Positions 18,528 through 59,764 of a stretch of DNA of 64,000 nt are shown one piece after another (within the stretch, counting starts at the first letter, position 1; each line of letters opens with the position of its first letter). The stretch lies in the NCBI GenBank assembly GCA_949358305.1, contig OX442324.1, forward strand, positions 8,095,601 through 8,159,600. Reading direction: 5' to 3'. Source of the stretch: Strigamia acuminata (lineage: Eukaryota > Arthropoda > Chilopoda > Geophilomorpha > Linotaeniidae). The notes under the pieces were generated by a model. That model was not told the origin of the DNA and ran no database searches. It saw only the letters and a program-made list of their open reading frames with translations. The position numbers and the translations under genes are program-made.

Positions 18528-18545
18528 TTCGGCCCCCTCGTATCA

Positions 18546-29485: not shown

Positions 29486-29527
29486 ATTAAAAACAAGTTG
29501 TATAAGTTTTACAGCTTTATTTGTGTA

Positions 29528-36256: not shown

Positions 36257-36261
36257 ATCGT

Positions 36262-36694: not shown

Positions 36695-36711
36695 AATCCC
36701 CCTTCGATTAA

Positions 36712-39700
36712 TCAATTTGTCGCAACAAAAATGTGCTCGCACAGCGCGTCCAATTTTGCGCGAGACAACCACTTTGTCATGATGTCCGCAACGTTGAGGG
36801 TCCCTGGGATATGCCTGATCCGAAAAACACCTTTTTCGAACCAGTCGCGCAAGAAATGCAGCTTCACGTCTATGTGTTTGTTTGCGCGATTTTCTATGCG
36901 GTTTTTCGCATATTGAATCGCAGGCATCGAATCGGCATAAACACATGGTATTTCCCGGTCAAACCCGTCAATCATCACTTCCGCGTCAAATATGCGTTCT
37001 AACCAAATTATCTCCTTCACACCGTCCACAACCGCCAAGAATTCGCTTTCCATAATGGAAAGAGCGGTAATGGTCTGCTTATGGCAGTTCCAGGAGACGG
37101 GGACACCACCCAGATAGATAATGTGCCCGCCAAAACTTCGGCGCTTGTCTTGGTCCAGTGCGTAAGACGCATCTGTGTAAACAGTTAACTTGTCACTTTG
37201 GCAGTTCCCAAGATTAATGGAGAAATTCGGCGTATTAGCCAGGTAACGCAACACTTGAAGCAGCATGTTTACGTGTCGTGTCGAGTGAGTCTCGTTGTAT
37301 TGAGACAATACAATTACAGAAAACAAGATATCGGGTCTTGTGCGACTTGCGATGAAGAGCAAACTTCCGACAAGAGACCGATATGGAAAACTCGAATTAA
37401 CACGTTCTCCCGTTTGGACTTTTTGGATCATAGTGCCGGGCGTGCCAGGCACTCTAACACGGTGAGATGGGTCAATACCGTATTGCTTGCAGAGCTTCGC
37501 AATATAGGTGCGTTGATGAATGAGGATATTCCCCCCGTCCCTACAAAACTCAATCCCTAATAAAAGGGTGACGGGGCCCAAATTGACAATCTCAAAGGAT
37601 TGTTGAATCCATTCTAAAACGCACTCTTCTGCCAACTCATCCCTCGAAAATAATACAATATCGTCGACGTAAAAGATGAGTATGGCGTCCGAACCCAAGC
37701 TATACACACAGTTAAGACCCAAAACCGGTTCAAAACCTATTTCAATCAGCTGGTCGTGTAAGCGCTGGTACCACATACGACCAGACTGATGAAGCCCATA
37801 GAGAGATTTTCTCAACTCCCAACATTTGTGTTGGTTTTCAGGTGTTCGATATCCCTTAGGGATGTTGATGTACTGCACCTCATCGAGGTCCCCATATAGA
37901 TATGCGGCCTTGATGTCAAGGTGTAAGTCACGCCAGCTCCTTAATACTACAAGAGTACAAAAGAACATCATGACCAACACAAAGTTGACTACGGGGGAAA
38001 AGACCTCCGTAAAGTCAATGCCGGGCTTCTGCTTGAACCCTTGTGCAACAAGACGAGCACGATATCTGCTAATCGCACCCGTATGATCCCTTTTGAGTTT
38101 ATAAATCCACTTTGATCCTAGCAAGGTTTTATCCTTGACTTCACTTTTGTCAACCTCGACATACACCTCTCGTTCTTTAAAGATGTCGATTTCGTCCTCC
38201 ATTGCCCTTTCCCAATCAGGTTTCCCAACACCTGTCACAGCCTCTTCGTAGGTGTCAGGCTCTACAGAGCAGCAACCAGCAAAACCGACATTGATGTCTT
38301 TGAAGTTGAACAATTCCGAGATATACTCGTATCCCTCGTCCCGACACCACCGCACAACTTCAACACGACTTCGAATTCTGTCATGCTTTGGTGAAATGTA
38401 ATAAACATCAACCTGCCCAGCCGTTGCGCCTGATTTTCGCACAGACTGCCGTCTTTGCCATTTAGACATGTCCAACGGCAATAACCCACCAGCTGGGACT
38501 GTGCGTTCCCCTGTATCCTTTCCTTTTCGTGGGGGATTACGACGCACAGGTGTAGGTGACGTTCGGGGGGATAGTTGAGGACTCGCATCAGGATCCTCAA
38601 TTTCATCCTCGTCATCGGGGTAAATATTGAAGAAATTCTCATCATCCCCCTTTGCCCCACCAATTTCATCAACATTTGCATCTCTAAGGACATCTTGCAC
38701 TATATCCTCGATGACATCTTCCACGACACCAGCGTCCCCAACTTGTTCAGGTGCCTTTTCGGGCGCAGGTTCCTGAATTGGGGGTGGGGAAACCACTGCT
38801 TCCGGTAGGGGGCCACCATGAACGCTGTCGTCGTCTGACGAGGAGCCATCCTCGTTTGAAGAATCAGACACGCTGTCGAAATATGAGGGGCTCGAGGGAG
38901 GAATTTTCAAATTTTCATACCAAAAATTCTGTTCCAATATTTTGACATGTTTCGAGAGGAACACTTGGTTCCGTTTCGGGTCCCAAATTCGATACCCACG
39001 GGTGGAAGCCGCATAACCAATTAATGCCCCTGCCCACGCCCTTTCTTTAAATTTCCCACCCCTTGTCTGGGAAGGAATGTGGACATATGTCAACGCCCCA
39101 ATGCATTTGACATGACGCAGGGACAATTTCTTATTGTAAAACACATTGTAAGGTGTTTTCCCTCCTAATCCCGTGTGTGGGAATCGATTTTTCAAATAAA
39201 CGACAGAAACTGCAAGTTCTGCCCACAAAGTCGGGGAAAAATTATTCTCAAAAAGAAATCCCGGATTCCATTAAGAATGGTGCGGTTCGCTCGCTCAGCA
39301 ACCGAATTCATCTCGGGGCTGTATGTATTCGTCCTCATACATTTCAACCCTATGCTATCAGTATAAGCATTCCATTGTTTCGATATGAACTCCCCACCAT
39401 TGTCAGTTTTAATGGCCTTGACCTTTTTAGAAGTAAGCCGTTCAATTTCCGTCAACCACTTCTTGAAATGACCCAAAACTTCATCTTTTGTTTTCATGAT
39501 GATAATCCACATTAGTCGGGAGAAATCATCGACCATAATTAGGTAATAAAATGCCCCACCAATGCTCTTAACCGGTGAGGGCCCCCAAACATCTAAGTGA
39601 ACAATTTCCAAAATCCCTTTAGTGGAGATATTAATAATGGGAGGAAAGCTTGCACGTGTGCTTTTCGCCCTCGAACAAGCATCGCAAGCCGACAATTCAG

Positions 39701-41522
39701 TGTTGGAAAGTTTCAGCCCAAATACTTCATCGGATTTTTCCAACAATGCAATCCCTTTTGCATTAAGGTGCCCAAAACGTGAATGCCAAACATCCATCGT
39801 TTGGGGTTTGTCAGGTTTAAAAAGAGCTTTGTTCCCACCATTATCTTTCAAATTGTTTTGTACAACTTGTTTGGAAATCTTCGGAGTCTTTGATTTATCT
39901 CCATTGTTGGCTATCAAGCCGACCTGTTTGTTGTTCAAAACATTCATCTTCTGACTCGGACTCGCATTATTTGCCACGATCGCTTGCGCATCATTCGCAG
40001 TATTTACTTGCCCCTTATTCGCAATTGCAGGTTTCCCTGTCTTACTCAAATTTTGGGTTAATGCAGTCTTAAAATCTAAATGAGTTAGTAATGAATTAAC
40101 AATTTCTTCACCCTTTAAAGGTGGACTAGGCTTCACTGCCGCATTCTGTTGCGCAGGTAATGCAGCAGCGTTAACAATGTGCGCAGTATTCACTTGACAA
40201 TTGACTTTATACATCCTATCACTCGTACGAGTCGCAGTGATAGAAGGCGCGTCAATGTTGTCCTGAAAAATGGACATTTTTCCATGTTTTACAAATGTCG
40301 TAGCCCCAGCTTCATCTGCGCGACCTAATGAAATCAGATTCTTTCTGAAGTTTGGCGCGTAGAAGACATTTTTCAACTGTAATTCACGTTTCTTTTGTCC
40401 ATAAAAAGATATTAATGTCACAGTCCCGATGCCCTCGATTTTCGACTTTCCTTCGCCCTGCTGGACGCTGTAACCAGTTAATGGTTTGAAGTCGGAGAAC
40501 CAGGACTTGTTGAACGAGAAATGGTCTGTCGCTCCTGTATCGACGTACCATTGCGAATCAAAGTTCGCATGTGACACCAGCGATACGACAGGAGGTTGCT
40601 CTTGAGTCGAAATCGCTGCGGAGAAGTAAGAGATGGGGACGTCATCAAAAACATTCATTTGGGTGACGGCGGCCTTTTGCCGGCCTTTTCCACGTGATTT
40701 TCCTCGTGGATTGCCTCTCAACTGTCCTGTTGATCCGCCTCTGCCTGTAAGTTGCTGTTTAGGCGGAGAAGGGCAGTCACGGGAAAAATGGCCAGTCCCA
40801 CCGCAGGTAAAACACACACGTGGGGAACTGGGCGCGGTCCCGCCGCGTCCACGTTGACCACTGCCTCCGCCAAAGAAGGCTTTAGTGTTTTCCAACGGTG
40901 TCGGGTTGGGCACTCCAAATTCGTCCCCCTTCTCGTAAAGGCGATTATACTCGCCTAAAAGTCTTTTTTTCACGGCAGCGGCCGTAAAGTCCGGGTCGGG
41001 CCAGTGATACACTGTCTGTTTGACTGGCTCGAATTGGGGCGGCAAAAGGTCCAAGTACTGGAAAGCGTGGAACTCATCCGAGACCACAATCTTCACGTCG
41101 GCGAGTTGTGTAACTTTCCGGTCGACACGGGAAGTAAAGACGACCATCTCTTCATCCTCCCGTAGACGCATATCGAGGAATTCCCGCCGGAGTCGGGCTT
41201 TGCGTGCACGCGTGGTCGGCTGGTAAGCCGCTTTCAGCGCTTCCCACACACCCTTCGCGGTTGGGTGGGCCACAGCCACGACTTGCTGTGGTTCGTTGCA
41301 AGCCAGACAAATGGTGGAGCGGGCTTTTTCTTCGCCCTTTTCGTAGTCACGAATTTCCTTTGCCGGCGATCCAGCAGGCGGTTCCTTGATTTTGCCGGTC
41401 ACATGTCCCCAAACCCCGTATGATTGAAGCAAAAGCTGGATTTGCATGCTCCAGGTGGGGTAATTGGAGCCGTCCAGTTTGCGTACATCCTTGTAATCAT
41501 CATGTCGGTCCCAATTCGACAT
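36712..41522 (-). pseudogene. Inner copia Gag-Pol polyprotein with MBD, one frameshift
   Basis: Start MSNWDRHDDYKDV at 41522. Domains: UBN2 gag (KLDGSNYPTWSMQIQLL), CCHC knuckle CFTCGGTGHFSRDC (plus about 40780-40825), retropepsin VDTGATDHFSFN (about 40540), GAG-pre-integrase WHSRFGHLNAKGI, zinc finger CDACSRAK, integrase HLDVWGP, IKTDNGGEF, NSVAERANRT. An MBD lies at plus 38293-38490 (SVRKSGATAGQVDVYYISP, then RIRSRVEVVRWC), followed by RT with YVDDIVLFS and RNase H ending DIMTKWL. A one-base indel in a T run near plus 39255 shifts the frame in the integrase after TILNG. Otherwise it is open over about 1,600 codons. Confidence 0.92.
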
Positions 41523-42665
41523 GGTGAAGAATTTGGTGAAAAATCGATGCACAAATCACAAAATTCACAATTTCGACGAAAAACACTCGAAAATTCACCA
41601 ATTTGATGAAAACACACATTAATATTCACAATCCCGGTGAATATGTCGTGCAGAGAAGCGAAAATGCCCCCAAAAATTGAAGGCGAAACAATCACAAACT
41701 TCCCTTTGGGCACCTCAATAAGTGAGGTGAAAAACCCGAATCTGGTCGCCCTACTAGCTTCCGACCGACCCAACTGGGGGCCGCGGGACGACTAGTTGGC
41801 CACGGACAAGCCCAGACCGGAATGAGACTGCACGTAGGCGACTGCCTAAAGGGTGCAGAATAAACAAAAGGACCCCAAAACAAAAACCTTAAGAATTAAC
41901 AGAGTTTCACGAAAATAGCAACTAAAATACACTTTTCAGATGTGAAGTTGGCCAATTACGGGATCCTTGCGTCGTAATTGGTTCCCACGTTGCAGTAAAC
42001 GTCGGCTTCACGTTGTCTTCGCACGGAACTGGGCTGACGTGCAGACCGCGTACACACTTCCGTGTATCGGCCAAAATCGATGTTGCGTACGTCCACGCCT
42101 TCGTACCCGCTTTCCTGGATGCGAAGCACGGAAATAACCGCCTGCACACACGCTTATCGTGTGCAGGACTTCTCGGTGATCGCCAGATTAAATCCGCGAG
42201 TTGAATCTCGTCGTTCTTGACGAAAAATCCAACGAAAATGGCTGCCGGTGCAACAATCGTCGATTCGCGACGATTTCTTCGCAAAATGACGGTTTCCAGA
42301 CGTTCCCACGCTGGAAAGACACCAAATGCAGCGGCTAATCGACGTATTCGTTCGTCGAAACGTTGGGCGTGCGTGTGTCGTTCCGTACACACTCGTAGAC
42401 ACGCTAACTTCGCAAACAAAAATGGCGCCGCCCGAGAAAAACTCGGTTATATCGGCGAAAAATAAACGAAATGCAATGTTCCTTACACCGTTTTGCTCCA
42501 AATTCACTGTAGAATTGTCCGCACACGTTGTCACGGCTGTCCTTCGCGAAAAATTCCGGTTTTCGGCGATACGTCTCGGCGACGATCTGCGACGAACTTC
42601 CGACGTTCGTTTTCGCCCGAAAAACCTCACGAACTCGTCAATAACCTGTTGGCCCGATCGTGAGA
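41523..42665 (-). other. Leader of inner copia
   Basis: An untranslated region of about 1.1 kb between PBS and start codon, without a long sense ORF. Its 3' part (41690-41893) holds the conserved structured block. Confidence 0.7.
41735..41860 (-). ncRNA. Structured leader RNA of inner copia
   Basis: Plus-strand positions: P1 41828-41833 with 41853-41858 (CTGCAC/GTGCAG), with TAGGC-AGTC-GCCTA on top in sense; P2 41812-41818 with 41739-41745; P3 41792-41796 with 41753-41757 (CTAGT/ACTAG). The core GTCCCGCG and GGTCGGAA is kept. Confidence 0.65.
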
Positions 42666-42677
42666 CCTCTGCTACCA
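42666..42677 (-). other. PBS of inner copia
   Basis: The minus strand TGGTAGCAGAGG lies two bases inside the 5' LTR. The same PBS is used by the outer, E8 and E5 elements and is a common copia type matching the 3' end of initiator tRNA-Met. Confidence 0.8.
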
Positions 42678-42679
42678 TT

Positions 42680-43112
42680 TGATAAGTCCGTGGAGGCCAG
42701 GAAACATCGGAAAGGAGTTGAAACCAGCTTAAAATGTGCGGGGAGCTCGCACTTCGCGCCCGCCATGTTTTAATCACATGAAAGCATAAAAGCGACTGGG
42801 TTTGAGGCTAATTGGTCTCAAACCGTACAAAGTATAACAATAGGACAAATCAATAGCAACAAGCATTGATTTGTTCTTTACAATATAAGTAATTGTTAAC
42901 CTAGGCATAATTAACCGATAAACAACACGGAAAACAACATTTATCGCTCTCTCAAGCAGACGACACGAGAAACATAGAATATGTGTGTTAACACATAAGA
43001 GTAGCATTAATATGCGCTACACGGGTATCCAAAGGATGCCAACACACATATCTGCCATGCCTATCCAGAAATGCATGGGGAAACGGACAAAATAATTAAT
43101 CGCACATTAATA
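42680..43112 (-). repeat. 5' LTR of inner copia
   Basis: 433 bp, almost identical to 36262-36694. Confidence 0.92.
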
Positions 43113-43117
43113 ATCGT

Positions 43118-46061
43118 CGGTGTCGTCCCCAATTGGTCCTGCAGCGGCCTCTTCGTTTTCCTCGTTAGTGATCGGGTGTGATATGGAATGACGAATTGGG
43201 GTTGGCAATGTCGATGCGCAAAGTTCCAATAATTGTCGTTCCGGTGTAGTTGGCGGGGGAATATGAACGATCTGCATAGGTGGCGTCTTTGATTTCGAAG
43301 CCGACTTAGATACAGATTTTTCTTCGGATATCGAATGCTCATCGTCTGATGCTGGTTTGATCGACCAGTCCGCATATTGGACGGTGTCGTTGAATGACAC
43401 TCTTTGTTGTTCATTGTTGGGTTCATAGAAGGATTCGTTGTTGCCATTTGGTACGCTTCGGAGAAACTTGCGATACGATTGATGTTCGTCTATGCGAACG
43501 TGGGCTGATTCGGTGACTTTATTGTCGATGGGATTCCAAATCCTGTAGCCACGTGTCGCGACCGCGTACCCAACGAGGTATCCTTCCTATGCGCGTGGTT
43601 CAAGCTTTTTACGGCCTGGCGCCGTGTAGTGGACCCAACATTTAGATCCGATCTTTCGTAAGTGTCGTAAAGATAGTGCTCGTTCACGCCATAGTACATA
43701 TGGGACTTGATTTTTCAAACGTGAATGAGGACTTCTATTCTTGATATAAGCAAAAGTCACCGCAAGCTCTGCCCATAGACCGGCCGGAAGTTTGGTTTCT
43801 TCATGAATCGCGCGGATGTTGTCAGCCATCGTTCTATTAATGCGCTCGGCCGTCCCGTTCATCTGTGGGCTCGATGGGTTCGTTCGCTGCCCTTGGATCC
43901 CTTTGTCCTTCAAATAGCGCTCGAATTCATTGGACATGAATTCGCCGCCACGGTCTGTGCGAATGGCTTTGATTGTTGTATTCGCAACCCGTTCGACTCT
44001 CGCGGCGAAGTCTTTAAAGCATGCGAAGACTTGGGACTTCTGCGCCAATGGGGTGATCCAAGTATATCTCGTGGCGTCATCTATGATCGTTAGAACGAAA
44101 CGAGCTCCACCGAAAGATGTTGCAGGAGCCGGCCCCCACACGTCCATATGCAGGAGGTCGAGTGCTTTGGTAGTACTCGGGTGAAGGTCCGGTTTGTGGG
44201 AAATTTTGATTGATTTTGCAAGACGGCAGTCATTGCAAGCAAGTTCTTGTTTTACTTCTCCCGGTTCCATTCCGTAAACTTGGTCGTTATTCGCCAACAG
44301 GCGCATTGCATTTGTGTGCAAATGCCCTAATCTGCTATGCCATAGACCCGTAGCATCCTTTACGTTTGCAGGGTTAGCAATTGCCTTCTTTGGTGACTTA
44401 GAAGGATTGCTCGGGGGAGGAGGTATGGCAGGAGGAGTATTAGGTAATGGCGTTGTCGGAATGGATTGGAGAACGTTGGAATAGGAATGGATAGGAGGAT
44501 CAGGCTGGACATTAGTGGATTTGGGAGCAGTTTGAGACTGGATAGGATTGACGATTTGATTCGGAATTTGCTTCGGAATTGGTGGCATTTCTATGCGAAA
44601 ATCCGTAATGTCTCCTTGTCTCGATTTCCCCTTCTTCGGTTTCGGAATGTTCTCAAAATCCACTTCTGTCGTGACATAAGTCAAAACTGGCGGTTGTGGA
44701 ATTGGTGGCGGAATTGTCGTCGACACCGGAATTGAAAACGTCGTAGCCACAGAAGGTGTTGAACATAAACCGTCTACATAATATAATCCAGCCTTCTCCT
44801 TTGCCCGAAGAATAGAGCTTCGAATGTCCGATTGATAGATGTTAACTTCACCGTTGTAGAAATGTATGTGATGACGTGTTTTATCGATTTTGGAAACCGA
44901 AATCAAATTGGCTTCGAAGTTCGGTGCAAAAAGTACATTCGTCAAATTCACAATACAATTGCAGTCATCTATTCTTGTGAGCAGTCGGACATTTCCTTTT
45001 CCGGTCACCTTGGACTTGCCTTGTCCGAGTTCGATGTCGAAAGGCACGATGTCCACAAAATCCGTAAACCAAGCTCGAACATAGGAAACGTGGTCCGTCG
45101 CGCCACAGTCGACAATCCATTCGTTGGATTGCATGAAATGAGCGACTGGGGCTTGTGGGGCACTGGCGAAGAATGTCCCTTCTCGTGTTGGACGAGAACA
45201 ACCTCGCGGACGCGTATCATCCGGTTTTGGCGCGGAGTTTTTGTTGCGCTTCTTGCTCTTGCTTCGAGAGCGTTGAAAAGAAGCCGATGCCGGGGGTTGA
45301 TTGCGATCCTCCCGTCGTGGATGGGGACACTTGTTCGCGTAGTGACCCATCTCATTACAGTTGTAACATTTAATTTCGGATAAAGGTCGACGAGGACGGG
45401 AATTCTTCCGGGATTGTTGGCCTTTTACAGACGAATGCACAGAAGATGAGTGTACATTGTGCAATCCCATCGGTTTCAACCGTAGATATTCGGAAATCAA
45501 TTGTTCGGCAACTTTAGTCGGTGTAAAGTCTTGATCAGGCCAGTGATATATGGCGAACGTTGCTTGTGCGTATTCGGGCGGTAGTCGGTTGAGGTATTGA
45601 TATGCGTGGTGATCATCTGTCGTGACTTCTTTGATGTCAGCCAATTGACGAACAAAATGATCAACTCGATTGATGAAATCCTGCATTTCCTCATTAGGTT
45701 CGAGATGCAACGTCAAGAATTCCGATCGTAATGCCGCCCGTCGTGCCCGCGAACTGGGCGCGTACGCTTTTGCCAGAACGTCTCATGCCTGTTTAGGCGT
45801 ATCACAATTGTCCAGGGCTGAACGTTTTGGTTCGCTGACATACATGTAGATATGTCCGAGAGCTTTGTCCTTTTTGACCATGTAACGTTCCTTTTCCTTT
45901 TCAGATAATGTTAGGAGATGGTCGGCCTCCTTCTCCTCCGTTACATGCCTCCAAAGGCCCTCGGATTTCAAAAGCATCCGCATCGCTCTCTGCCAGGGCT
46001 CGTAATTTCCGACAGAGAGGATGGGAATTCGGCTGACTGTCGTTTCCGTTGTCTTTTGCAT
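43118..46061 (-). pseudogene. Outer copia polyprotein, N-terminal half: gag, protease, integrase
   Basis: Start MQKTTETTVSRIP at 46061 (or an upstream Met at 46091). UBN2 gag (VGNYEPWQRAMRMLLKSEG), CCHC knuckle CYNCNEMGHYANKC (plus about 45330-45372), retropepsin VDCGATDHVSY (Asp-Cys-Gly in place of Asp-Thr-Gly), GAG-pre-integrase LWHSRLGHLHTNA, finger CNDCRLAK, integrase HMDVWGP, IRTDRGGEF, NGTAERINRT. Two in-frame stops replace Trp: TGA at about 45782-45784 and TAG at about 43588. The C-terminal linker ends at the inner element. Confidence 0.9.
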
Positions 46062-46982
46062 CGTTGCGAAGACTCGGCGCACCACGCGCAATACACGGAC
46101 TTAGGAGAATGGTATAACGGCGATCGAAGCACGTCACTAATCGGTGGCACAAAAATGTCGTTGTAAACACAGATCGGAGCACAGCACTTCCAACGTAGTT
46201 CAAGGCGGATATCAATCAAGGGGGCGGTCAATGCTAAAATTGACCAAATAACCTTTGACAAGTGTCCCCCTAACGCCCTTTGCAAGCCACCTGGGGCCAC
46301 GGAAACGTTAGGTGAGGCAGGGCTCAGCCTTGTCAAAGAATACAACCGCAGCTGAGACGACTGTCCCAAGGGCTGCGGCGATACTAATATTGGCCCACAC
46401 CAAAAACTTAAAATTATCTTATAACTAACAAATAAAGTCGACAGGGAAGGCGAAAGGTGATGAATCTCCCGTGGAAGGTCACACGGGCTCGCGGCAAAGC
46501 ACGGGACGGGTTTTCTCGAAAAACCCGCTAGAAAAGCGCAATTCGGCTTCGAAAAACCGAATTCTTCTCGATTTAACGAGGCTCTTCGTGAAAAATACAC
46601 AGATCGTCGAAATAATTCGAAAATCGTCGATACTACATGCACGCCGGGGTGCATGAAGCGAGAATCGTCTCGTTTCTCGTTGCAAAACGTCTCGTCGACG
46701 TTGTCGGAAGAGAAAATCGTCGAAATCCTGGAAAAAATAAAGATTCGCCTCGAAATTTGCGAGACCGCACAATTTCGGACGAAATTAGCCGGAGAATCGT
46801 GTAATGTGCAGTGCAAACTGCCTGGGAACGTCGTTGACACGTGATCGACGTCCAAAACGCGAAAATCCAGCTTGAAAAGTGACGAAATGCCTGAAAATAC
46901 AAATTCGCCGCAAAATTCGCGAAATTCGCGGAATTTTCGGCGATAATTAGTAGCAAATGAAGCGTGCAGAGGACGCAACCAT
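46062..46982 (-). other. Leader of outer copia
   Basis: Untranslated region of about 0.9 kb between PBS and start codon. The structured block lies at 46254-46378. No long sense ORF. Confidence 0.7.
46254..46378 (-). ncRNA. Structured leader RNA of outer copia
   Basis: Plus-strand positions: P1 46346-46352 with 46372-46378 (CCGCAGC/GCTGCGG); P2 46329-46337 with 46254-46262 (9 perfect pairs, CTTGTCAAA/TTTGACAAG); P3 46306-46312 with 46269-46275 (7 perfect pairs, CGTTAGG/CCTAACG). The bases differ from the other copies but the pairing is kept. Confidence 0.68.
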
Positions 46983-46994
46983 CCTCTGCTACCA
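46983..46994 (-). other. PBS of outer copia
   Basis: Minus strand TGGTAGCAGAGG, two bases inside the 5' LTR. Confidence 0.8.
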
Positions 46995-46996
46995 AT

Positions 46997-47546
46997 TGTA
47001 GGTTGGCAGCAGAGGAACACAACCGAAAACCACTCGAAACGTCGAGTGCAGCGTGGCGAAAACGTTGCAAAGGCGTCGCACTACTCGTGCGAACGTGTGG
47101 GCGACGTCGGAGTCGAAAAACAAATAAAACGGCCGCGATATTCGCTTATACGCCGTGACAAATGATAAACAAGTGCTTAAAAACATAAAACATATTTAAT
47201 GAAACGAAAATACTCACAAATGAGTCCATTACAGTGTGAAATCATAAGGGCGAGAGCCAAAGCGATGGTCGTCGCCATCTTGGAAGGTGAAAAAAAACAC
47301 TAACGACACCTGGTGTCGTGAATTAGCGTTACGGAATTGAGAAATTCCGTAAAGCTTAACAAAGCATTAAGACCTGCATGATACCTCATGCAGAAATACA
47401 ATAACATAATGTAAATGTTTGGAAATGACATACATAATTGAATATAATAAATATCGGAATAAATAAACGAATATAATAAAACAATAGATCATAATGTGAT
47501 TCTATATCACATCGACACACATATAATTTGGTTCCTTAGACCAACA
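46997..47546 (-). repeat. 5' LTR of outer copia
   Basis: 550 bp, nearly identical to 33445-33994 (CGTTGC/CGTCGC and GATACC/GATATC differences). In sense it begins TGTTGGTCTAAGG and carries the GTGATATAGAATCACA palindrome, a YY1-like CCAAGATGGCG and AATAAAACGG-type poly(A) candidates. Confidence 0.92.
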
Positions 47547-47551: not shown

Positions 47552-48283
47552 ACACACGGGGTTGACATGAATAATTCCGAGGTTATTGCAAACAGAAGTG
47601 AAGGATTAGAGCAGTTTACATTGGATTTTGAGCCCAAATCTGATGAAGGGTTTAGACAGGCCGATTCCATGAAAGTTTGTGAGATTTCTTCGACGTCACT
47701 GGAAGATGACATTTTCCCAACACCGTTAGAGACATTGATAGGTGTAAATGAATATAAATTCATCAAGACAGAGGGGGAATGTGGAAAGACAAAGAGACAA
47801 AAGAAAAAGAGACGTAAGAAATGTAAGGACGCTGCTTTAATGAAAACAAATGACGATGAATGTCAGTTAACGGTTAATGAACCGATATTGGATAACGAAA
47901 TAACTAAAATAGAACAGTATTTGGGTCTCACAACTGAGAATGAAATGGTTGGGACCTCATGTTACTCCACATACTATTACTCTGGGACGGACCTAAAGAT
48001 GCTTGACATGTCCCAGTGGATTAGACAAGCCACGGTTGAAGAAACGAAAAACGGGACCAATAAGATTGTTGTTTATTACATATCACCATTTGGAAATCAA
48101 ATGTATTGCATAGAGGATGTGATAGATTGGTGTGGTGATAATGGTTTTAACCTAGATGTGCTTTGGTTCGATTTTAGTAATAAAGATCCAATACACCCGG
48201 CATATCCCGTTACTAACAAGCGGTGGGTTGAGCCCAAGAATTCAGAATTCATCGAGTATGACTATATAGACATTAGTCTGTAA
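47552..48283 (+). pseudogene. E3 ORF, C-terminal part with MBD-like domain
   Basis: The frame resumes from 33444 after one AGTCA copy. Acidic and Lys-rich linkers lead to an MBD-like segment at about 48000-48190 (LDMSQWIRQATVEETKNGTN, IVVYYISPFGNQMY, IEDVIDWCGDNGF). Compared with E8, the first key Arg (VRKDG) is Glu and the second (IRSR) is replaced (MYCI), so DNA binding may be lost. The frame stops at 48281-48283, just after the domain. RT-start motifs found in the sister elements are absent. E3 therefore encoded an integrase-MBD protein without RT or RNase H, at least in this copy. Confidence 0.7.
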
Positions 48284-49014: not shown

Positions 49015-51973
49015 GAAATCCCAGACCTTTGGGGCATTTAAGGACTTCGTCGCCCGAGTCGAACGAATTCAAAACACTCGCGTGAAAGCGATTAGATCCG
49101 ATCGGGGCGGCGAATTCATGTCAAATAAATTTCTGAACTACCTCAAAGAAAAGGGCATCCAAGGGCAGAGGACCAATCCCGCATCACCTCAAATGAACGG
49201 GACTGCCGAACGCATAAAACAAACAATGGCCGACAGTGTCCGATCACTTATCTCCGAAACTCGACTCCCGGACGACCTTTGGGCGGAACTCGCCGTCACA
49301 TTTGCGTATGTGAAGAACCAAAGTCCGCATTCGAGATTGAATAACCAAATTCCCTATATCCTATGGCGACAACGAGCATTGTCTTTACGACACCTACGCA
49401 AAATGGGGTCCAAATGCTGGGTGCATTACACCGCGCCAGGCCGCAAGAAACTAGATCCGCGTGCATGGGAGGGATATCTCGTTGGTTACGCGACTGGTAC
49501 CCGCGGATATAGAGTTTGGAATCCGGTAGAAGATCGAGTTTACGAAACGGTTTACGTCAAGATCGATGAACGCCAATCATATCGGAAATCTCTTCGTGGC
49601 GCATCTCAACGGCCCGAAGAAACCCTTTCTGGCGTCGGACAGCAATCGGTATCGTTTAACGACAACGTTCAGTTTCAAGACTGGCCAAGACATTCCGATT
49701 CCGACCATTCTGACCATTCCGACGACGACTCCGATAATGGTGGAGCAAGCCACGCCAGCGGCGTATCGACATCTCGATCTGTTCATACACCGGTCATCCA
49801 ATTGCCGCCTCCGACAACGCCAGAGCAACTGTTGTTGGAACTGTGTGCGTCACAGCTACCGAGTTCGGCAAGTTTGAGACACTCGCAGACATATCCAATA
49901 CTTTTTCAAGAAGAACCAGACCATACGGAGGATGAAGTTGATCAAATTGACGAGATTTCAATTTATCCAGGGACGTCGGAATTTACTGGGACATCTGCAG
50001 AACAGTCTCCTCGTCAGTCACCGCCTGGTTCTCCAGCTAGATACATCACATATCGCCGGAAAACCCGTGGAGCAGAACTTTCTCATACAGTATCGGTATT
50101 TGACGATACTCCAATGTCTCCCGCTCCTGTCCAGCATATAGTAGGGACAGAAGTCTTGCTTGCCACGGATCGCCATACTGCGTATATTTGGCGACCCATT
50201 GGGGGAGATTCCGAGTGCAGTGATTGGAGACGCGAGGAACACCTCCGGAAGGATCAAGTCCCGGGATCGATTAAAACGGACGTTTACTATTTTCCGATGC
50301 CCGGCATTCGACTCAGATCTCAGAGAAATGTAGATGAATACTGTATGCTCAACAACATCGATTATGACCTCAGTTTATTTATTTGGAGCAACATCGAGTA
50401 TACATTACCTACTGTTCCGGGTGTTCGTCATGCGGCTCATCTTTGCAGAACGGAACCAACTTCCTACGCTGAAATCCCGAAATTCTCCGACGCTCCGAAA
50501 TGGCGCGAAGCCATTAAGGAAGAGCTTGACACATCCACCGAAAGAGAAGTTTATCTCGAAGTCCCAAGACCACCGGATACCACGATTTTGGGCTGCAAAT
50601 GGCTTTTTAAGTTGAAGACCGATGCAGCAGGGACGATCACCAGATATCGAGCTCGTTTAGTCGCCCAGGGTTTTCGTCAAACTCTCGGAGTCGACTACGA
50701 TGAAGTTTTTAGTCCGGTGGTGAATTTCGTTTTAATCCGCTAATTTTTCTGTCTTCTCGTCGTGTTGCGTGGTTGGAAGGATGCACACTTAGATGTGAAA
50801 TGTGCGTACCTGTATGGTGAACTTAAACATAAAGTCTACATGCGGATCCCTGCAGGTGCCACATGTTCCAACCCCAACAATGTGTGGCTACTCGTTAAAT
50901 CCCTTTATGGACTCCACCAATCCGGAAGACAGTGGTTCGAAAAATTAGACGAAACGCTTCGAGACCTCGGATTCCGAAGAATGCCCGCGTGTAATTGTGT
51001 TTACGTCTTCTGAAATTCCGCTATCATGTTAGTCTACGTGGACGATATTATTTTATTCTACGCGTCCGACAGCGTTTTCAATCAATTGATCCAACTTATC
51101 AGTTCGAAATTCCAAATCGTTAATCTCGGTCCGATTACGAAATTGTTAGGCGTCGAGTTCATTCGTGATATGGGACGCACATTCATTTCCCAACGTGCTT
51201 ATATTGCGAAGATCATCAAAAAGTTTGGAACCTCGACCAACAAGCTAGTGAAAGTTCCCGTGACACCCGGGACGACACTCGTCAGAGGATCGACCGAGAA
51301 TTTGGAAGATTTCCCATACCGCTCACTGATAGGATTGCTGTTATTCTTGGCTTCGAGGACACGCCCCGATATACTTTACTCCGTTATCCATTTATCGCAA
51401 TACAACACCTGCTATAATAAGACCCACATTCAAGCATTGCTTCAAGTTCTACAGTATGTCGCTAACACCGCGCACTTTTGCATCGAATTATCCGGCTGTA
51501 CATCTTCACAATTGTGGGCTTACACCGACGCTTCGTGGGCATGCGATCCGGAGACATCATTAAGTTTCGGCGGTTATATTACTTTCATCGGAAATATTCC
51601 CATCGGCTGGTCTTGCCGAAAACAGTCCACCGTGGCGTGCTCAACAATGGAAGCGGAATTCATCGCCCTTGTTGAGTGCGTCAAGGAACTTTACTGGTTG
51701 GACCACGTTTATCTTCAGTTCCCGATCCTCAACCGATTATCGCGACCCGTCATTTATTCCGACGCTTTCTCGGCCATACAGTTTACCTCCAACGATGTCG
51801 AAACTTCGAAAACTTGACACATTCGTGTGCGATATCACTGGCTCAGAGAGTGGTATACGGCGGGACGCTTCGAACTCCGCAAAGTGCCGGCGATCTCAAC
51901 GTCGCCGACATCTTCACGAAGTGGCTCGGATCGGAACGTTTACAATCGTTGATATCTCGGATTTTCCGATTGT
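49015..51973 (+). pseudogene. E4 polyprotein remainder: integrase end, MBD-like, RT, RNase H
   Basis: Integrase second Asp (IRSDRGGEF), Glu (NGTAERIKQ), then a Ser/Asp-rich linker, an MBD-like segment at about 50176-50390 (REEHLRKDQVPGSIKTDVYY, IRLRSQRNVDEYC), RT with VAQGFRQTLGVDYDEVFSPV and YVDDIILFY, RNase H with YTDASWACD, STMEAEFIALVECVKE and NVADIFTKWL. Breaks: TAA at 50741-50743, TGA at 51011-51013, TGA at 51815-51817 and a small indel near 51880. The piece is decayed but its domains are clear. Confidence 0.88.
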
Positions 51974-52818: not shown

Positions 52819-53286
52819 TGAAGAGTTGTGATGGCCTGTGCGCTGCAGAAATAACTGGAAACATTATTTTGGCTGGGCGGATAAATCGGACACGCGTCCG
52901 CCATCTTTTATTACAAAAGTGTGTAGTAAAAATCACTTGAGTTCGAGGCTAATTGTCCTCGATCTCGTACAAAACAAAAGACAGAACGAATCATTGTCTT
53001 TACACAATGATCCATTCTTTACATTAAGAGCAGGCCAAGCTAATCAATAAACTTGATCCAAAACAAAGCAAACAATAAGTGCTCTTTAGAGCGGATGACA
53101 ATGTGAGATGTGTTATTGCAAATAATGATCGGTCGCGGTACCGTAACACGCATTGAATAAAAACCAGGATTGACCGATCACATGAACAGGTCTAGAAGCA
53201 ATAACACATCAAATGCACTAAGCCGTAAAGGTGCATTTAACTTCACACGCGCGCACGGGGACAAACAGCAAAACATCAACCCAACA
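52819..53286 (-). repeat. 3' LTR of E8
   Basis: Plus-strand ends are TGAAGAGTTG and CAACCCAACA. The minus-strand PPT AACAAAGGGGGATT is adjacent at 53287-53300. A YY1-like GCCATCTTT lies at 52900-52908. Confidence 0.93.
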
Positions 53287-53303
53287 AATCCCCCTTTGTT
53301 TAG

Positions 53304-56300
53304 CTATTTGTCTATCACAAAAATGTACTCGCACAGCGCGTTCAACCGGGACTTTGCTAACCATTTCGTTAGGATATCCGCGACATTTAATTCGCCGGAA
53401 ACATGCTCGATCAAAAACGTTCCTTTCTCAAACCAATCTCTAACGAAATGGAGCTTCACGTCTATATGTTTATTTGCCCTGTTCTCGATCCTATTCTTAC
53501 AGTATTGGATAGCCGGCTGGCTATCCGCAAAAACACAGGGCGTATTTCGCTCGACACAGAACATTATCTTCGCGTCGTAAAGGCGCTCGAGCCAAATAAC
53601 TTCTTTCACCCCATCGACCACGGCGAGAAATTCGCTCTCCATGATCGACAGGGAGGTCATCGATTGTTTGTGGCAATTCCACGAGATGGGAATGCCACCC
53701 ATATAGACAATATGTCCCCCAAAGCTTCGTCGTCTGTCTTGATCTAGGGCAAACGACGCGTCGGTGTAAACTGTCAAATTCTCGTTTTTACAGTTCGATA
53801 AGTTAATCGAATAATTCGACGTGGTGGCCAAATATCGCAGGACCTGCAGTAACATATTGACATGGCGCGTCGAATGCGTCTCGTTATACTGGGAAAGCAC
53901 TATTACTGAAAACAGTATGTCGGGTCTGGTTCGGCTGGCGATGAACAACAGACTTCCGACCAGAGATCTGTACGGGAATGAGGTGTCGACTTTTTCTCCG
54001 GTTCTTGCACTTTGAATCATGGTTCCCGGGGTTACTGGAACCTTTACTCGATGGCACGAGTCAATCCCGTACGCTTTACAAAGCTTTTCAATATATTTCC
54101 GTTGGTGGATTTTAATCATGCCCCCGGACCTATCAAACTCGATTCCTAAAAGTAAAGTTACGGGTCCCAGACTCACTACTTCAAACGATTCCCGTAACCA
54201 CTTCAAAACGCATTGTTCCACATAGTCATCCTTCGAGAACAGCACGATATCGTCCACGTAGAAGATGACTATCCCGTCGTTGTCTAGGGCATAGACACAG
54301 TTTAAACCCAACAACGGTTGAAAGCCCAATTCAAGTAGTCGTATGTGGAGGACCTGGTACCACATACGACCGGACTGGTGTAATCCATAAAGTGCTTTTA
54401 AAAGCATCCAGCATTTATGCTTATTATGGGCGGTACGATATCCCTTGGGGATCTCCATGTACTGTACCGTATCGAGGTCCCCGTAAAGGTACGCGGCCTT
54501 GATATCTAGGTGTAAATCCCGCCATCCCTTGAGTATCACCAAAGTGCAAAAGAACACTATCACTAGCACGAAGTTGACGACGGGGGAGAACACCTCCGTA
54601 AAGTCAACTCCGGGCTTTTGCTTAAAGCCCTGTGCGACGAGTCGGGCTCGGTAGCGTTGGATAACACCCGTGTGGTCGCGCTTCATTTTGTATATCCATT
54701 TCGATCCCAAGAGAGTCGTACCCTCGTCTAAAGTTGTTTTGTCAACTTCCTTGTAAACCGTTCTTTCATCGAACACATCAATTTCCTCTCTCATGGCTTT
54801 TATCCAATCAGGACGCTTGATGTGGTACATGGCTTCTTCGTAGGTTTCTGGCTCGACGGCACAGAAACCTGCAAACCCTAACGGTTCACCGTCCCCCTCT
54901 AATGTCTTAAAGTCAAATAAGGTCGCATCATATGCGTACCCTTCTTCATCGCACCACCGTGCGATATCAACTCGACTTCTTATCTTGTCCTTTAAGGGCG
55001 TGATGTAAACAACATCTATTTGTCCCGCCGTCGCTCCGTCTTTACGGACGGATGCGCGTCGTTCCCATTCCGCCATATTTAACGGCAGTAGTTCCGGGCG
55101 TGACATCACGTCCCCTTTCTTTTTCTTTGATCGTGATCCACGTCGTGTTTGAATCCCAGGAGGAATTTCAGGTTCCCCATCATTGTCAGGATAGACGTTG
55201 AAGTAATTCCCATCATCCCCCTTCGCCCCACCAATTTCTTCAACAGGCTCATCCCCTGTACCCCTATCCCCAAGAATAGGGTTCCCCTCAACGGGCATGA
55301 GTGGGGGTTGCTGAGCTGCCTGTTTAGCGACTGGCCTCAATTCAGGTCTAAAAGTAGGCTTTGGGGTCGTGGGCAATGCGGGTTTCACTTTCTGCTGCGG
55401 AACAGGTTGTGGGACTTCCTGTATCGCAGGAGGGGGTTCCGGGATCTCCGGAACTTCTAGGACCTCCGGGATCTCTGGAGCCTTCTGAATTATCGGGTCG
55501 CCAGCAACACTGTCGTCGTCAGAAAATGACCCATTGAACGAGTCCGAACTCGAAGTATCAAAGTCATTCTCCAATTCAGGCGACGTGACCGTCCCTAATT
55601 CAAACCAGAAATTGTTTTCAAAAATTTTGACGTGTTTAGACAAAAACACCTGATTTTTATTCGGATCCCAAATTCTATAGCCGCGTGTAGAAGCGGCGTA
55701 TCCAATTAATGCCCCAGCCCATGCCCTGTCTTGTAATTTCCCACCCCGAGTCTGAGATGGGATATGGACATAAGTCAATGAGCCAATGCACTTGACATGG
55801 CGAAGGGACAATTTCTTATTATAAAACACAGAATAAGGTGTTTTTCCACCAATTCCCGTATGTGGAAAACGGTTTTTCAGATATACAACTGAAACGGCAA
55901 GCTCTGCCCATAGAGTGGCGGGAAATTTATTCTCAAAAAGAAGTGCCCGAGTACCATTAAGAATGGTACGGTTCGCTCGTTCGGCGACCGAATTCATTTC
56001 TGGGCTGTATGCATTAGTCCTCATACACTTAAGCCCAATTGTCGCCACATAATCGTCCCATTGTCTAGATATGAATTCCCCTCCATTATCAGTTTTTATG
56101 GCCTTTACCTTCTTAGAGGTCGTTCGCTCAACTTCAAGTAGCCACCGCTTGAAATGTCCTAAAACGTCACTTTTCCGTTTCATGATAATTATCCACATAA
56201 AGCGGGAAAAATCATCGATGAGAATGAGATAATAGTACGCCCCACCCAATGTTTGAACTGGCGCGGGGCCCCACACGTCTAAGTGCACTATTTCCAAAAT

Positions 56301-58187
56301 ACTTTTTGTCGTAATTCCAATTATTGGGGGAAAACTAGCACGTGTGCTCTTCGCCCTGGCGCAAAAGTCACACGTCGACAACTCCTTATTCGAGAGTTTC
56401 AGCCCAAAAACATCAGTTGACTTTTCTAAACCCGCAATTCCCTTTGCATTTAAATGCCCTAAGCGGGAGTGCCAAATGTCCATCGTTTGAGCCTTATCTT
56501 TCTTGTCAAAAGTTTTAACCCCATTAGTAGAATTGTTCCCATTCTCTGCTTTGTCTGCTTTGTTCTGCACAATTGAACTTGCCTCCTTAGAGGCATTGGC
56601 AGTCTTTGCCTTGATTTTATTCGAAACATTCGCTTGCGCATTAGTCGTAACATTCGCAGGCGCGTTGTTCGCAACACTCGCTTGCCCCTTTATCGCTGGT
56701 GCAGGTTTCCCTGACTCACTCGAATTTTGGGTTAATGCGTCCTTAAAACTAGGGTATGTTAGTATCGAATTTACAACTTCATCGCCTTTTATAAGCGGAC
56801 TAGAAGACACTGTCGCAGCTTGTTGCGCAGGTAATGCGGCAGTGTTCACAGGAGAAATACGACAATTGACCTTATACATCCGATCACTCGTGCGTTCCGC
56901 AGTGATGGAAGGGTCATCAATTTTGTCGTTATAAATAACCATTTTGCCATTTTTAATCATGGTCGTTGCCCCAGCTTCATCCGTGCGACCCAACGAAATC
57001 AAATTCTTCCTAAAGTTGGGTGCATAAAATACATTTTGCAATGTAAGTGCACGGGTGCGGGTTCCGTAAATCGATGTCAATGTCACATTTCCTATTCCTT
57101 CGATTCTCGACTTTCCTTCTCCCTGTTGCACGTGGCCAGTTAATGGCTTGAAGTCGGAAAACCAGTCTTTGTTGAAGGAGAAATGGTCCGTCGCCCCTGT
57201 GTCGACGTACCATTGCGAATCATAATTCGCGTGAGACACGTGGGAAGCCGGCACAGGGGGTTGTTGTTGAAGCCAAATCGCCGCGGAGTAATAAGAGACT
57301 GGAGAGTCGCTGAATATGTCAGCCTGTGTGACAGCGGCCTTTTGCTGGCCCCTTCCACGTCCCTTGCCCCGTGGATTGCCTCTAAATTGTCCAGTTTGGT
57401 TCCCTTTTGGTTGGAATTGCTGTTTCGGCGGAGTAGGGCATTCACGGGCGAAGTGACCCGTCCCACCGCAAGTAAAACAGATGCGTGGGCCGCCGGGTGC
57501 ATTTCCACCACGTCCGCGTTGTCTTCCGCCTTGGTTAAAGAAAGCGCCAGTGCTCTCCAATGGCGTCTTGGAAGGCACGCCAAACTCGTCAGTCGTTACA
57601 TGCAAGCGGTTGTATTCGCCTACCAGGCGTTCCTTGACCGCTGCTGCCGTGAACTCTGCGTCACCCCAGTGATAAACCGTCTGCTTGACCGGTTCGTATT
57701 GGGGTGGCAACAGGTCGAGGTATTGAAAGGCGTGAAACTCGTCCGTAATGTTTATCTTGACGTCGGCAAGTTGCACGACCTTTCGGTCAACTCGTGCGGT
57801 GAAAACAAACATCTCTTCGTTTTCATGCAACCGCATGTCCAAAAATTCCCGGCGAAGACGGGCTTTACGTGCCCGTGTCGTGGGCTGGTAGGCAGCTTTC
57901 AGTGCCTCCCACACCTCCTTCGCAGTAGCGTGGGCGACAGCCACAACCTGTTGGGCCTCGCCACACGCCAGACAAATGGTGGAGCGAGCCCTTTCCTCGC
58001 CTTTCTCAAAATCCCTTGTCTCTCGAAACGGTGATCCGGCCGGCGGCTCTTTCGTCTTGCCGGTCACGTGGCCCCAAACTCCGTACGATTGGAGAAGGAG
58101 CTGGACTTGTACGCTCCAAGTCGGGTAGTTGGTTCCGTCCAACTTTTTCACGTCCTTGTAATCATCATGGCGGTCGTAGGACGCCAT
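53304..58187 (-). CDS. E8 Gag-Pol polyprotein (1,627 aa) with methyl-CpG-binding-like domain
   Basis: The start MASYDRHDDYKD at 58187 was chosen by alignment with the inner element; the frame is open further upstream. Domains (residues): UBN2 gag 8-200, CCHC knuckle CFTCGGTGHFARECP about 235-250, retropepsin VDTGATDHFSFN about 320, GAG-pre-integrase WHSRLGHLNAKGI about 567, finger CDFCARAK about 605, integrase HLDVWGP about 632, IKTDNGGEF about 695 and NSVAERANRT about 735, MBD about 1031-1094, RT VAQGFKQKPGVDFTEVFSPV and YVDDIVLFS about 1308, RNase H VYTDASFALD about 1472, SIMESEFLAVVDGVKE and terminal ADILTKWL. In the MBD, VRKDGATAGQIDVVYITP and KIRSRVDIARWC keep the two Arg, the Asp and the Tyr that contact methylated CpG in MeCP2/MBD2. 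No breaks. All functions for transposition appear present. Confidence 0.95.
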   Translation of the reverse strand: MASYDRHDDYKDVKKLDGTNYPTWSVQVQLLLQSYGVWGHVTGKTKEPPAGSPFRETRDFEKGEERARSTICLACGEAQQVVAVAHATAKEVWEALKAAYQPTTRARKARLRREFLDMRLHENEEMFVFTARVDRKVVQLADVKINITDEFHAFQYLDLLPPQYEPVKQTVYHWGDAEFTAAAVKERLVGEYNRLHVTTDEFGVPSKTPLESTGAFFNQGGRQRGRGGNAPGGPRICFTCGGTGHFARECPTPPKQQFQPKGNQTGQFRGNPRGKGRGRGQQKAAVTQADIFSDSPVSYYSAAIWLQQQPPVPASHVSHANYDSQWYVDTGATDHFSFNKDWFSDFKPLTGHVQQGEGKSRIEGIGNVTLTSIYGTRTRALTLQNVFYAPNFRKNLISLGRTDEAGATTMIKNGKMVIYNDKIDDPSITAERTSDRMYKVNCRISPVNTAALPAQQAATVSSSPLIKGDEVVNSILTYPSFKDALTQNSSESGKPAPAIKGQASVANNAPANVTTNAQANVSNKIKAKTANASKEASSIVQNKADKAENGNNSTNGVKTFDKKDKAQTMDIWHSRLGHLNAKGIAGLEKSTDVFGLKLSNKELSTCDFCARAKSTRASFPPIIGITTKSILEIVHLDVWGPAPVQTLGGAYYYLILIDDFSRFMWIIIMKRKSDVLGHFKRWLLEVERTTSKKVKAIKTDNGGEFISRQWDDYVATIGLKCMRTNAYSPEMNSVAERANRTILNGTRALLFENKFPATLWAELAVSVVYLKNRFPHTGIGGKTPYSVFYNKKLSLRHVKCIGSLTYVHIPSQTRGGKLQDRAWAGALIGYAASTRGYRIWDPNKNQVFLSKHVKIFENNFWFELGTVTSPELENDFDTSSSDSFNGSFSDDDSVAGDPIIQKAPEIPEVLEVPEIPEPPPAIQEVPQPVPQQKVKPALPTTPKPTFRPELRPVAKQAAQQPPLMPVEGNPILGDRGTGDEPVEEIGGAKGDDGNYFNVYPDNDGEPEIPPGIQTRRGSRSKKKKGDVMSRPELLPLNMAEWERRASVRKDGATAGQIDVVYITPLKDKIRSRVDIARWCDEEGYAYDATLFDFKTLEGDGEPLGFAGFCAVEPETYEEAMYHIKRPDWIKAMREEIDVFDERTVYKEVDKTTLDEGTTLLGSKWIYKMKRDHTGVIQRYRARLVAQGFKQKPGVDFTEVFSPVVNFVLVIVFFCTLVILKGWRDLHLDIKAAYLYGDLDTVQYMEIPKGYRTAHNKHKCWMLLKALYGLHQSGRMWYQVLHIRLLELGFQPLLGLNCVYALDNDGIVIFYVDDIVLFSKDDYVEQCVLKWLRESFEVVSLGPVTLLLGIEFDRSGGMIKIHQRKYIEKLCKAYGIDSCHRVKVPVTPGTMIQSARTGEKVDTSFPYRSLVGSLLFIASRTRPDILFSVIVLSQYNETHSTRHVNMLLQVLRYLATTSNYSINLSNCKNENLTVYTDASFALDQDRRRSFGGHIVYMGGIPISWNCHKQSMTSLSIMESEFLAVVDGVKEVIWLERLYDAKIMFCVERNTPCVFADSQPAIQYCKNRIENRANKHIDVKLHFVRDWFEKGTFLIEHVSGELNVADILTKWLAKSRLNALCEYIFVIDK

Positions 58188-59281
58188 TTCGGGAAAATTT
58201 GCGACGAAATTTAGTGAAGAACCGAAGCACAAGTCACACAAACCACGTAAATTCGTCGCACGGATGTACAAATAGCCCCCAAAAGGCAAGGAGAGCAATA
58301 CACACTTCCCGGGGGTCAATCCTTTTAAGAAGGAGAAAATACTTCAACTGGGTACTCTACCAGCTTCCGATCGAGTCACCTAGTGCCCGCGGGACGGCTG
58401 GCTTGCCACGAGACAGCCCCAGTTGAAAATGAGACTCCACTTGGGTGAATACCCGAAGGGTGGAGAATATACTAAATATCCCACAACAAAAACCTTAATT
58501 TCTAACAGAGTTTCACGACAGTAAATTATATTACACTTTTTGATGTGAAGCTGGTAAAGTTGCGGCGAATTGCGGGTGCAAAGCGTCGCAATAACGTCCT
58601 TCGAGGACGAAACGTTGCTCCCACGTCGTCGTACGCACGGAAAATGGGCTGTCGTGCCGTCCGCGTGCACACTTCCGTGCGATCGCGGGAAAATCAACGT
58701 CGCGCTCGTCCGCGCCTTCGTGAGATGAACTCCGGGGTTCAAATCACGGAAAATAATGCCTGCACACACGCTTATCGTGTGCAGGACTTCTCGGTGGCTA
58801 CAGACTTCTCTGTATGCTGTGAAAATCGTCGTTCGCGACGATAAATCCAAAAAGAAAATGGCCGCCGTCGCGAAAATCTTCCGTGATGGCGTCCAAACGT
58901 GCTTATTTCGCACAAAATCGACAAATAAAGTTCCTACCGTCGTTTGTAATCCAGTAGTGTGTCTAGTTGGGCACACAACACTGTAGAAAATTCCTACAAA
59001 GCGCCGGGATTCGCACGCACTTGCAGAAATCTCGAAACACGATAAATCCGATCGTCGCTTTTTCCCACGACGTCGGGACGTTGACAACACGTATTTTCCG
59101 TGCTGGAAACGTTCACCAAAACACTCGAACCTCGTTGTAAACTCCGCACACGAATCCACGATGATTTCCGCACCAAAAACCCGTTTTTACGACGAGCTGG
59201 GCGGGCGCACACTCGGCGACTTCTCGTAGTCGCAAAAAGGCCGTTTCTTCTCCAAAAACGTCGTTGCCAGATCGTTTTTAC
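58188..59281 (-). other. Leader of E8
   Basis: Untranslated region of about 1.1 kb between PBS and start codon, with short unconserved ORFs only. The structured block is at 58343-58465. Confidence 0.7.
58343..58465 (-). ncRNA. Structured leader RNA of E8
   Basis: Plus-strand positions: P1 58435-58440 with 58460-58465 (CTCCAC/GTGGAG); P2 58418-58427 with 58343-58352 (10 perfect pairs, CCCAGTTGAA/TTCAACTGGG); P3 58397-58401 with 58360-58364 (GCTGG/CCAGC). The core GTCCCGCG and GATCGGAA is kept. About 155 bases separate it from the start codon. Confidence 0.7.
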
Positions 59282-59293
59282 CCTCTGCTACCA
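59282..59293 (-). other. PBS of E8
   Basis: Minus strand TGGTAGCAGAGG, three bases inside the 5' LTR. Confidence 0.8.
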
Positions 59294-59296
59294 CTT

Positions 59297-59764
59297 TGAA
59301 GAGTTGTGATGGCCTGTGCGCTGCAGAAATAACTGGAAACATTATTTTGGCTGGGCGGATAAATCGGACACGCGTCCGCCATCTTTTATTACAAAAGTGT
59401 GTAGTAAAAATCACTTGAGTTCGAGGCTAATTGTCCTCGATCTCGTACAAAACAAAAGACAGAACGAATCATTGTCTTTACACAATGATCCATTCTTTAC
59501 ATTAAGAGCAGGCCAAGCTAATCAATAAACTTGATCCAAAACAAAGCAAACAATAAGTGCTCTTTAGAGCGGATGACAATGTGAGATGTGTTATTGCAAA
59601 TAATGATCGGTCGCGGTACCGTAACACGCATTGAATAAAAACCAGGATTGACCGATCACATGAACAGGTCTAGAAGCAATAACACATCAAATGCACTAAG
59701 CCGTAAAGGTGCATTTAACTTCACACGCGCGCACGGGGACAAACAGCAAAACATCAACCCAACA
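59297..59764 (-). repeat. 5' LTR of E8
   Basis: 468 bp, identical by eye to 52819-53286. Confidence 0.93.

Follow-up and report, generated by a model that had tools for sequence, protein, structure and literature searches.

The window analysed here is a stretch of 64,000 nucleotides (assembly GCA_949358305.1, contig OX442324.1, positions 8,095,601 to 8,159,600). It contains a complete copia retrotransposon with long terminal repeats (LTRs), which we refer to as E8, and the polyprotein of this element carries a methyl-CpG-binding domain (MBD) between integrase and reverse transcriptase (RT). E8 is inserted in another copia element, of the 18.5-kb family; its two LTRs (52819-53286 and 59297-59764, 468 bp each) are 100% identical, and the target duplication is 5 bp long (TGCCT on the plus strand). 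The element has the characters of the Ty1/copia group, namely gag, a zinc knuckle and an integrase ahead of RVT_2 in one frame, together with LTRs, a 5-bp target duplication, a purine tract and a primer site, TGGTAGCAGAG, which we take to match the initiator tRNA-Met. The Pfam domains follow one another in the order Retrotran_gag_2, zf-CCHC, Pol_BBD, gag_pre-integrs, rve, SH3_retrovirus, MBD and RVT_2. The copia elements and domains discussed first are as follows.

52819-59764, minus strand: E8, complete copia LTR retrotransposon with LTRs and target duplication
53304-58319, minus strand: gag-pol open reading frame of E8, 1671 amino acids (aa), single frame
54906-55073, minus strand: MBD of E8, residues 1083-1138, Pfam MBD 34.4 bits, E 1.7e-8
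36262-43112, minus strand: inner element, nested within the outer one, LTRs 99.77% identical, target duplication ATCGT
38281-38460, minus strand: MBD of the inner element, 37.3 bits, E 2.2e-9, all contact residues present including Tyr
33445-47546, minus strand: outer element, interrupted by the inner one, LTRs 99.64% identical, target duplication AGTCA
35783-35947, minus strand: MBD of the outer element, 16.7 bits, E 0.0056, below the cut-off, Arg, Asp, Tyr and Arg present
50222-50389, plus strand: MBD of element E4, 17.3 bits, E 0.0038, below the cut-off

Identity and abundance of the domain

The initial annotation had proposed an MBD between integrase and RT at 54905-55093 and its recurrence in the inner, outer and E4 elements. 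Searches with the Pfam MBD profile (PF01429, curated cut-off 21 bits) bear out both proposals: in E8 the domain is located between SH3_retrovirus (residues 833-906) and RVT_2 (from residue 1199), and the inner element has the same order of SH3, MBD and RVT_2. The polyproteins of these two elements score above the cut-off; the outer and E4 blocks score below it, yet they occupy the same position and can be aligned with the E8 and inner domains. When the E8 domain was compared with the sequences of solved structures, human MBD1 ranked first (5.3e-10), and all 29 matches listed were MBD proteins. In fold searches with predicted models (mean pLDDT of 65.6 and 79.1), MBDs likewise ranked first, so that the expected fold was recovered, although in models only. 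Thus, judged by family and by predicted fold, the domain is a genuine MBD.

A key question is whether MBD copies of this kind are confined to the window. In the whole genome (237.5 Mb, 157 contigs), 150 places were scored among 1092 candidates for MBD copies, and all 150 exceeded the Pfam cut-off, many of them in frames of more than 1,500 aa. The first-ranked human MBD1, the exclusive presence of MBD proteins among the structure matches and these 150 places indicate that the match is more than fortuitous. The idea that a linker resembles the MBD pattern by chance could draw on the sub-threshold scores of the outer and E4 blocks and of the spider proteins P0005 and P0006, but it is contradicted by the scores of E8, the inner element, protein P0019 (9.9e-11) and the 150 genome places, by the fold match and by the lack of any match in 9 of 20 other re-scanned copia proteins; we consider it refuted, with practically no probability left.

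Reading of 30 loci revealed several lineages beside the E8 group (L001/L002, L003/L004 and L006), with L055 as a further one. In 16 of 20 fetched copies, clean LTR pairs (99.57-100% identical) with 5-bp duplications were present; in the remainder, L045 had only short repeats, and no LTR pair was found in L047, L050 and L058. The MBD-copia families are young, and a large, recently active copia group carries the MBD in this genome. In the abundant family that includes L046, L048 and L049, the LTRs begin with TAT and end with TTA rather than TG...CA, although the 5-bp duplications are still present.

Two further copia-derived blocks of the window resemble the domain.

20217-20384, minus strand: short-loop MBD-like block of the copia element 18202-24053 (the 18.5-kb element), with aligned Arg, Asp, Arg and Ser in the same position
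32011-33444 and 47552-48274, plus strand: older copia-derived frame lacking RT, split by the outer element, with SH3, integrase region and MBD-like block
48017-48190, plus strand: MBD-like block of this RT-less frame, 18.9 bits, below the cut-off, both arginine fingers lost

The short-loop block gave no Pfam MBD match and has Glu at the Tyr position. Direct repeats of 877 bp (17328-18204 and 24054-24930, 99.5% identical) abut the outer ends of its element and do not resemble an ordinary target duplication in their arrangement. In the RT-less frame, a stop precedes any RT, the integrase region has no Pfam rve match, and the first catalytic Asp appears by eye to be replaced. This frame resembled a domesticated host gene, but its 103 genome-wide matches (89 scored of 2577 candidates) speak against such an origin; several of them are identical, some are arranged in tandem on C7, and their frames reach ~1,200 aa. 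The window also contains an intact Harbinger-type DDE_Tnp_4 transposase frame (29528-30664, minus strand), which was recently active judging by two further copies on C1 that are 99-100% identical. That Harbinger and integrase-MBD parts form one combined element was rejected: among the matches listed, no integrase-MBD match lies within 80 kb of the two other near-identical Harbinger copies (C1, at 42.2 and 56.3 Mb), and no long inverted repeats were found at the borders of a combined element.

Relatives, contact residues and selection

Are relatives of the domain present beyond this genome? A search of 5.8 billion proteins with the E8 MBD region alone yielded no relative among 80 candidates, and none was confirmed among 25 stretches of viral_contigs and 74 of genome_contigs. 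A profile built on the region from MBD to RT in four window elements retrieved 549 proteins, with both MBD and RVT_2 labelled on 5 among the 120 listed; a second profile, built from those five, retrieved 5983, with 8 so labelled among the 120 listed. The missing MBD label in most listed proteins is uninformative, since the query cover was only 64-80% and the matches start near RT. Combined, the two profiles gave nine labelled proteins, four of which are named as those of the orb-weaver spider Araneus ventricosus: P0019, P0123, P0124 and P0171, with clusters of 1, 38, 217 and 2 member sequences, respectively. Automatic annotation has already assigned the MBD to spider proteins in public databases.

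A re-scan of 20 copia proteins, which did not include the ninth labelled protein, P0170, placed eight above the MBD cut-off (P0002, P0003, P0008, P0019, P0028, P0123, P0124 and P0171) and three below it (P0005 from Araneus, P0006 from Trichonephila clavipes, and P0125), and it gave no MBD match in P0004, P0007, P0024, P0126, P0128, P0167, P0169, P0122 from Populus and P0131 from Prunus. The whole order of integrase, SH3, MBD and RVT_2 was found in P0008, P0123, P0124 and P0171. In a tree of 27 RT segments, five short-loop elements and five whose upstream part was unread are grouped together with support of 98/94. Two changes are required for the full-domain elements, P0028 being placed on a long branch beside the short-loop group. 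This pattern fits a single capture followed by shortening or loss of the domain, without proving it.

The conservation of the residues that touch DNA was counted in 32 distinct cores over 52 positions, 20 cores from this genome and 12 from elsewhere, excluding the degenerate P0007, the truncated P0024, P0170 and the RT-less copy of the window. In MBD1 numbering (Arg22, Asp32, Tyr34, Arg44 and Ser45), Arg22 and Ser45 were present in 32 of 32 cores, and Arg44 and Asp32 in 31. These four residues, all of which contact DNA, are the most conserved of the 52 positions; Asp32 presumably supports the first arginine finger. Position 34 behaves differently, being Tyr in 12 of 12 outside cores and in 9 of the 20 from this genome. 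The initial annotation had assigned both arginines, the Asp and the Tyr to E8 and had noted the same block in the inner, outer and E4 elements. The two arginines and the Asp hold in all four elements, and the inner, outer and E4 elements have Tyr at the position of MBD2 Tyr178. E8 retains both arginine fingers, the Asp and the Ser, but has Val at the selectivity position (MBD1 Tyr34, MBD2 Tyr178), and the Tyr that had been credited with methyl-CpG contact lies one residue past it. The abundant relatives of E8 have V, I or W there.

Another important question is whether the domain has been maintained by selection or has simply persisted. Between families, identity to E8 ranges from 29 to 59% in the preceding linker, from 34 to 71% in the domain and from 52 to 84% in RT; in the most distant family, L055, domain and linker barely differ (0.34 vs 0.30). 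The ratio of nonsynonymous to synonymous substitution rates (dN/dS) was computable for both regions in 11 of 36 pairs, which share sequences and are not independent: it was 0.03-0.19 in the domain and 0.13-0.40 in the linker, with the domain lower in all 11. On these sequence comparisons, the domain is under purifying selection. A passive relic, captured once and drifting without function, would agree with the occurrence of short-loop and degenerate forms (the E5 block and P0004-P0007), but the low dN/dS of the domain in every computable pair largely refutes it, and the contact residues are the most conserved positions; we regard such a relic as highly improbable.

A proposed DNA-binding tether at the integrase tail and its alternatives

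The most likely reading of these data is a DNA-binding tether at the tail of the integrase. We lean, somewhat more than evenly, toward the following course of events. A copia lineage of animals would have taken up a host-type MBD (of the MBD1/MBD2/MeCP2 kind) and retained it in the C-terminal tail of the integrase, between SH3 and RT. By gripping CpG DNA in host chromatin, the domain would anchor the integrase complex, and insertions would be directed away from genes and into certain domains, probably methylated and rich in repeats. The targeting segments of Ty1 and Ty5 likewise lie at the integrase tail. Lineages with the Tyr (inner, outer, E4 and the spider elements) would be expected to favour methylated CpG. 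In E8 and the abundant families that have V, I or W instead, binding to CpG DNA probably depends hardly or not at all on methylation, as is the case for mammalian MBD3. This reading draws on sequence data, namely the identity and position of the domain, its recurrence here and in the spider, the predicted fold, purifying selection and the conservation of contact residues; binding to DNA, a preference for methyl-CpG and a choice of insertion sites are inferred. Insertion targeting by methylation is plausible.

The 11 DNA_methylase matches in the genome correspond to five loci. Four of them (C1:30.37 Mb, C1:11.84 Mb, C3:32.74 Mb and C3:35.92 Mb) match DNMT1 structures (2.3e-62, 2.9e-52, 8.1e-57 and 5.9e-42), with mammalian DNMT1 well above plant and fungal enzymes by score; four DNMT1-like loci are unusually many for one animal genome. 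The fifth matches DNMT2, a tRNA methyltransferase, and no DNMT3-like locus was found among the 11 matches. An MBD_C match marks one host gene of the MBD2/3 type. The DNMT1-type loci and this gene point most strongly to an animal host equipped for methylation, and an oomycete host was rejected since the loci match animal DNMT1 best; by its gene content, a host devoid of CpG methylation seems unlikely. Within the window, strong CpG depletion is confined to 27500-33440 (observed/expected ~0.5, with an excess of TpG and CpA), most of the remainder being near 1.2; this hints at methylation in the past or at a family of different composition.

The differences between the LTR pairs of 19 elements include seven transitions, five of which change a CpG against 23% expected (p 0.0097), a hint of germline methylation of the LTRs. 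The same excess could speak for a protective role, in which the MBD would keep copies expressed by shielding methylated CpGs in the LTRs of the element or by competing with the host MBD2/3-NuRD complex, and its adjacency to integrase would be incidental; the MBD2/3-type gene in the host suits this view. Single-copy changes in the coding part (flanks masked), however, had no CpG excess (0.0038 vs 0.0033 transitions per site), and a gag-pol polyprotein packaged in particles would be a poor free nuclear binder. We consider such a role improbable.

At 19 insertion sites, CpG was denser within 29 bp than in the rest of the same flanks (46 vs 34.4, p 0.026), in a test chosen post hoc. On C6, 12 of 12 places lie in the last 2.65 Mb, and on C3, 16 of 17 in the first 13 Mb; C4 and C12 are likewise skewed, in an assessment of the 150 places that covered the chromosomes other than C8, C9 and C11. 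On C1, 17 of 34 merged MBD-copia places lie in the last 5 Mb, compared with 1 of 30 Harbinger-type places. This clustering on several chromosomes, often at one end, fits both targeting and slower loss of copies there.

Several observations weigh against methylation-guided insertion. The CpG preference was not replicated in a larger sample from one abundant family (113 LTR ends, with 47 paired elements among 100 listed): 33 of 47 right-hand flanks, two of which look like one duplicated segment, had CG in the first 21 offsets, with 0.045 CG per base, compared with 0.057 in the window and 0.052-0.071 in flanks 100-400 bp away. A second LTR family has 94 ends in the genome. No fixed motif was seen in the target duplications. 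Copies on C5 and C13 are not clustered (Kolmogorov-Smirnov p 0.41 and 0.60), the comparator for clustering was Harbinger-type places and no MBD-free LTR family, and the clustering elsewhere may stem from selective removal of copies from gene-rich arms. The CpG observed/expected ratio of the window is 1.19, with no overall depletion, and thus gives no sign of dense methylation in the germline. In some relatives the domain is shortened or degenerate, and the cores of the conservation count were chosen for their MBD resemblance, degenerate ones being left out. Finally, 11 of the 20 cores of this genome, E8 included, have lost the selectivity Tyr and carry V, I, W or E instead.

This last observation is also an argument for a clamp blind to methylation, in which the fold would be maintained because it gives the integrase or pre-integration complex affinity for DNA in general or for CpG DNA, methylation playing no part, as in mammalian MBD3. 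According to passages of PMC9520026, the two arginines and the tyrosine at the Tyr178 position are critical in MBD2, and the lower selectivity of MBD3 is put down primarily to a single Tyr-to-Phe change. The 47 insertion ends without CpG preference point the same way, but the Tyr in all 12 outside cores and in 9 of 20 here, together with the nearly invariant Asp32, argues against the clamp, which we judge rather unlikely. Of the reader of methylation proposed in the initial annotation, the MBD family and fold, the position between integrase and RT, the two arginine fingers kept by selection and the DNMT1-type host stand, and neither a missing profile match nor a deviating fold, either of which would have spoken against it, was observed. 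Methyl selection found no support, given the lost Tyr in E8 and the abundant families, and neither did site choice, given the larger sample without CpG preference. More tentatively, and with doubt prevailing, the tether may be extended to a whole clade of animal Copia elements, which would steer insertion into methylated, repeat-rich domains by its captured reader, and bursting subfamilies would have loosened the need for methylation by losing one Tyr, so that target range would evolve by single-residue change. The natural domains with and without the selectivity Tyr in one genome make the link between methylation and insertion in invertebrates directly testable.

Comparison with known systems

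The domain belongs to the same Pfam family as animal MBD1, MBD2, MBD3, MeCP2 and MBD4 and shares their fold and arginine fingers; those are host nuclear proteins, whereas here the domain is part of a retroelement polyprotein, and it has three extra residues ahead of the FDF motif compared with MBD1 and MBD2. The chromodomain fold is unrelated to the MBD fold. In the chromoviruses (Ty3/Gypsy, with a chromodomain) and in the oomycete element Chronos (PMC5348765), a chromatin reader is likewise joined to the integrase end and is presumed to steer integration. The elements described here differ from both in their copia order, with the domain before RT and not at the end of pol, and in a domain that would read DNA (CpG) and not histone marks. 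GalEa-like elements are likewise animal Copia with the standard order of gag, protease, integrase and RT/RNase H, and the main text on them (PMC3587641) contains neither MBD nor any methyl- word.

In the open literature, we found no account of an MBD in an LTR retrotransposon, a coverage that excludes subscription papers, Repbase reports and bioRxiv. The tether would add a DNA-based mode of targeting, the third after that of the chromodomains and that of Ty1 and Ty5, which are tethered by proteins. Host methylation machinery has also been taken over by retrotransposons of Symbiodinium and Klebsormidium that encode cytosine methyltransferases (PMC5890265), but these carry a writer (DNMT) and not a reader; in the main text of that paper, the Symbiodinium Copia elements are without a DNMT domain, and neither MBD nor methyl-CpG is mentioned. 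DNA transposons with TET/JBP dioxygenases (PMC12730594) similarly combine a mobile element with a protein handling 5-methylcytosine, although of the eraser type, and the main text of this paper does not mention MBD or methyl-CpG either. With a writer known in retroelements and an eraser in DNA transposons, a reader in the integrase would complete the set.
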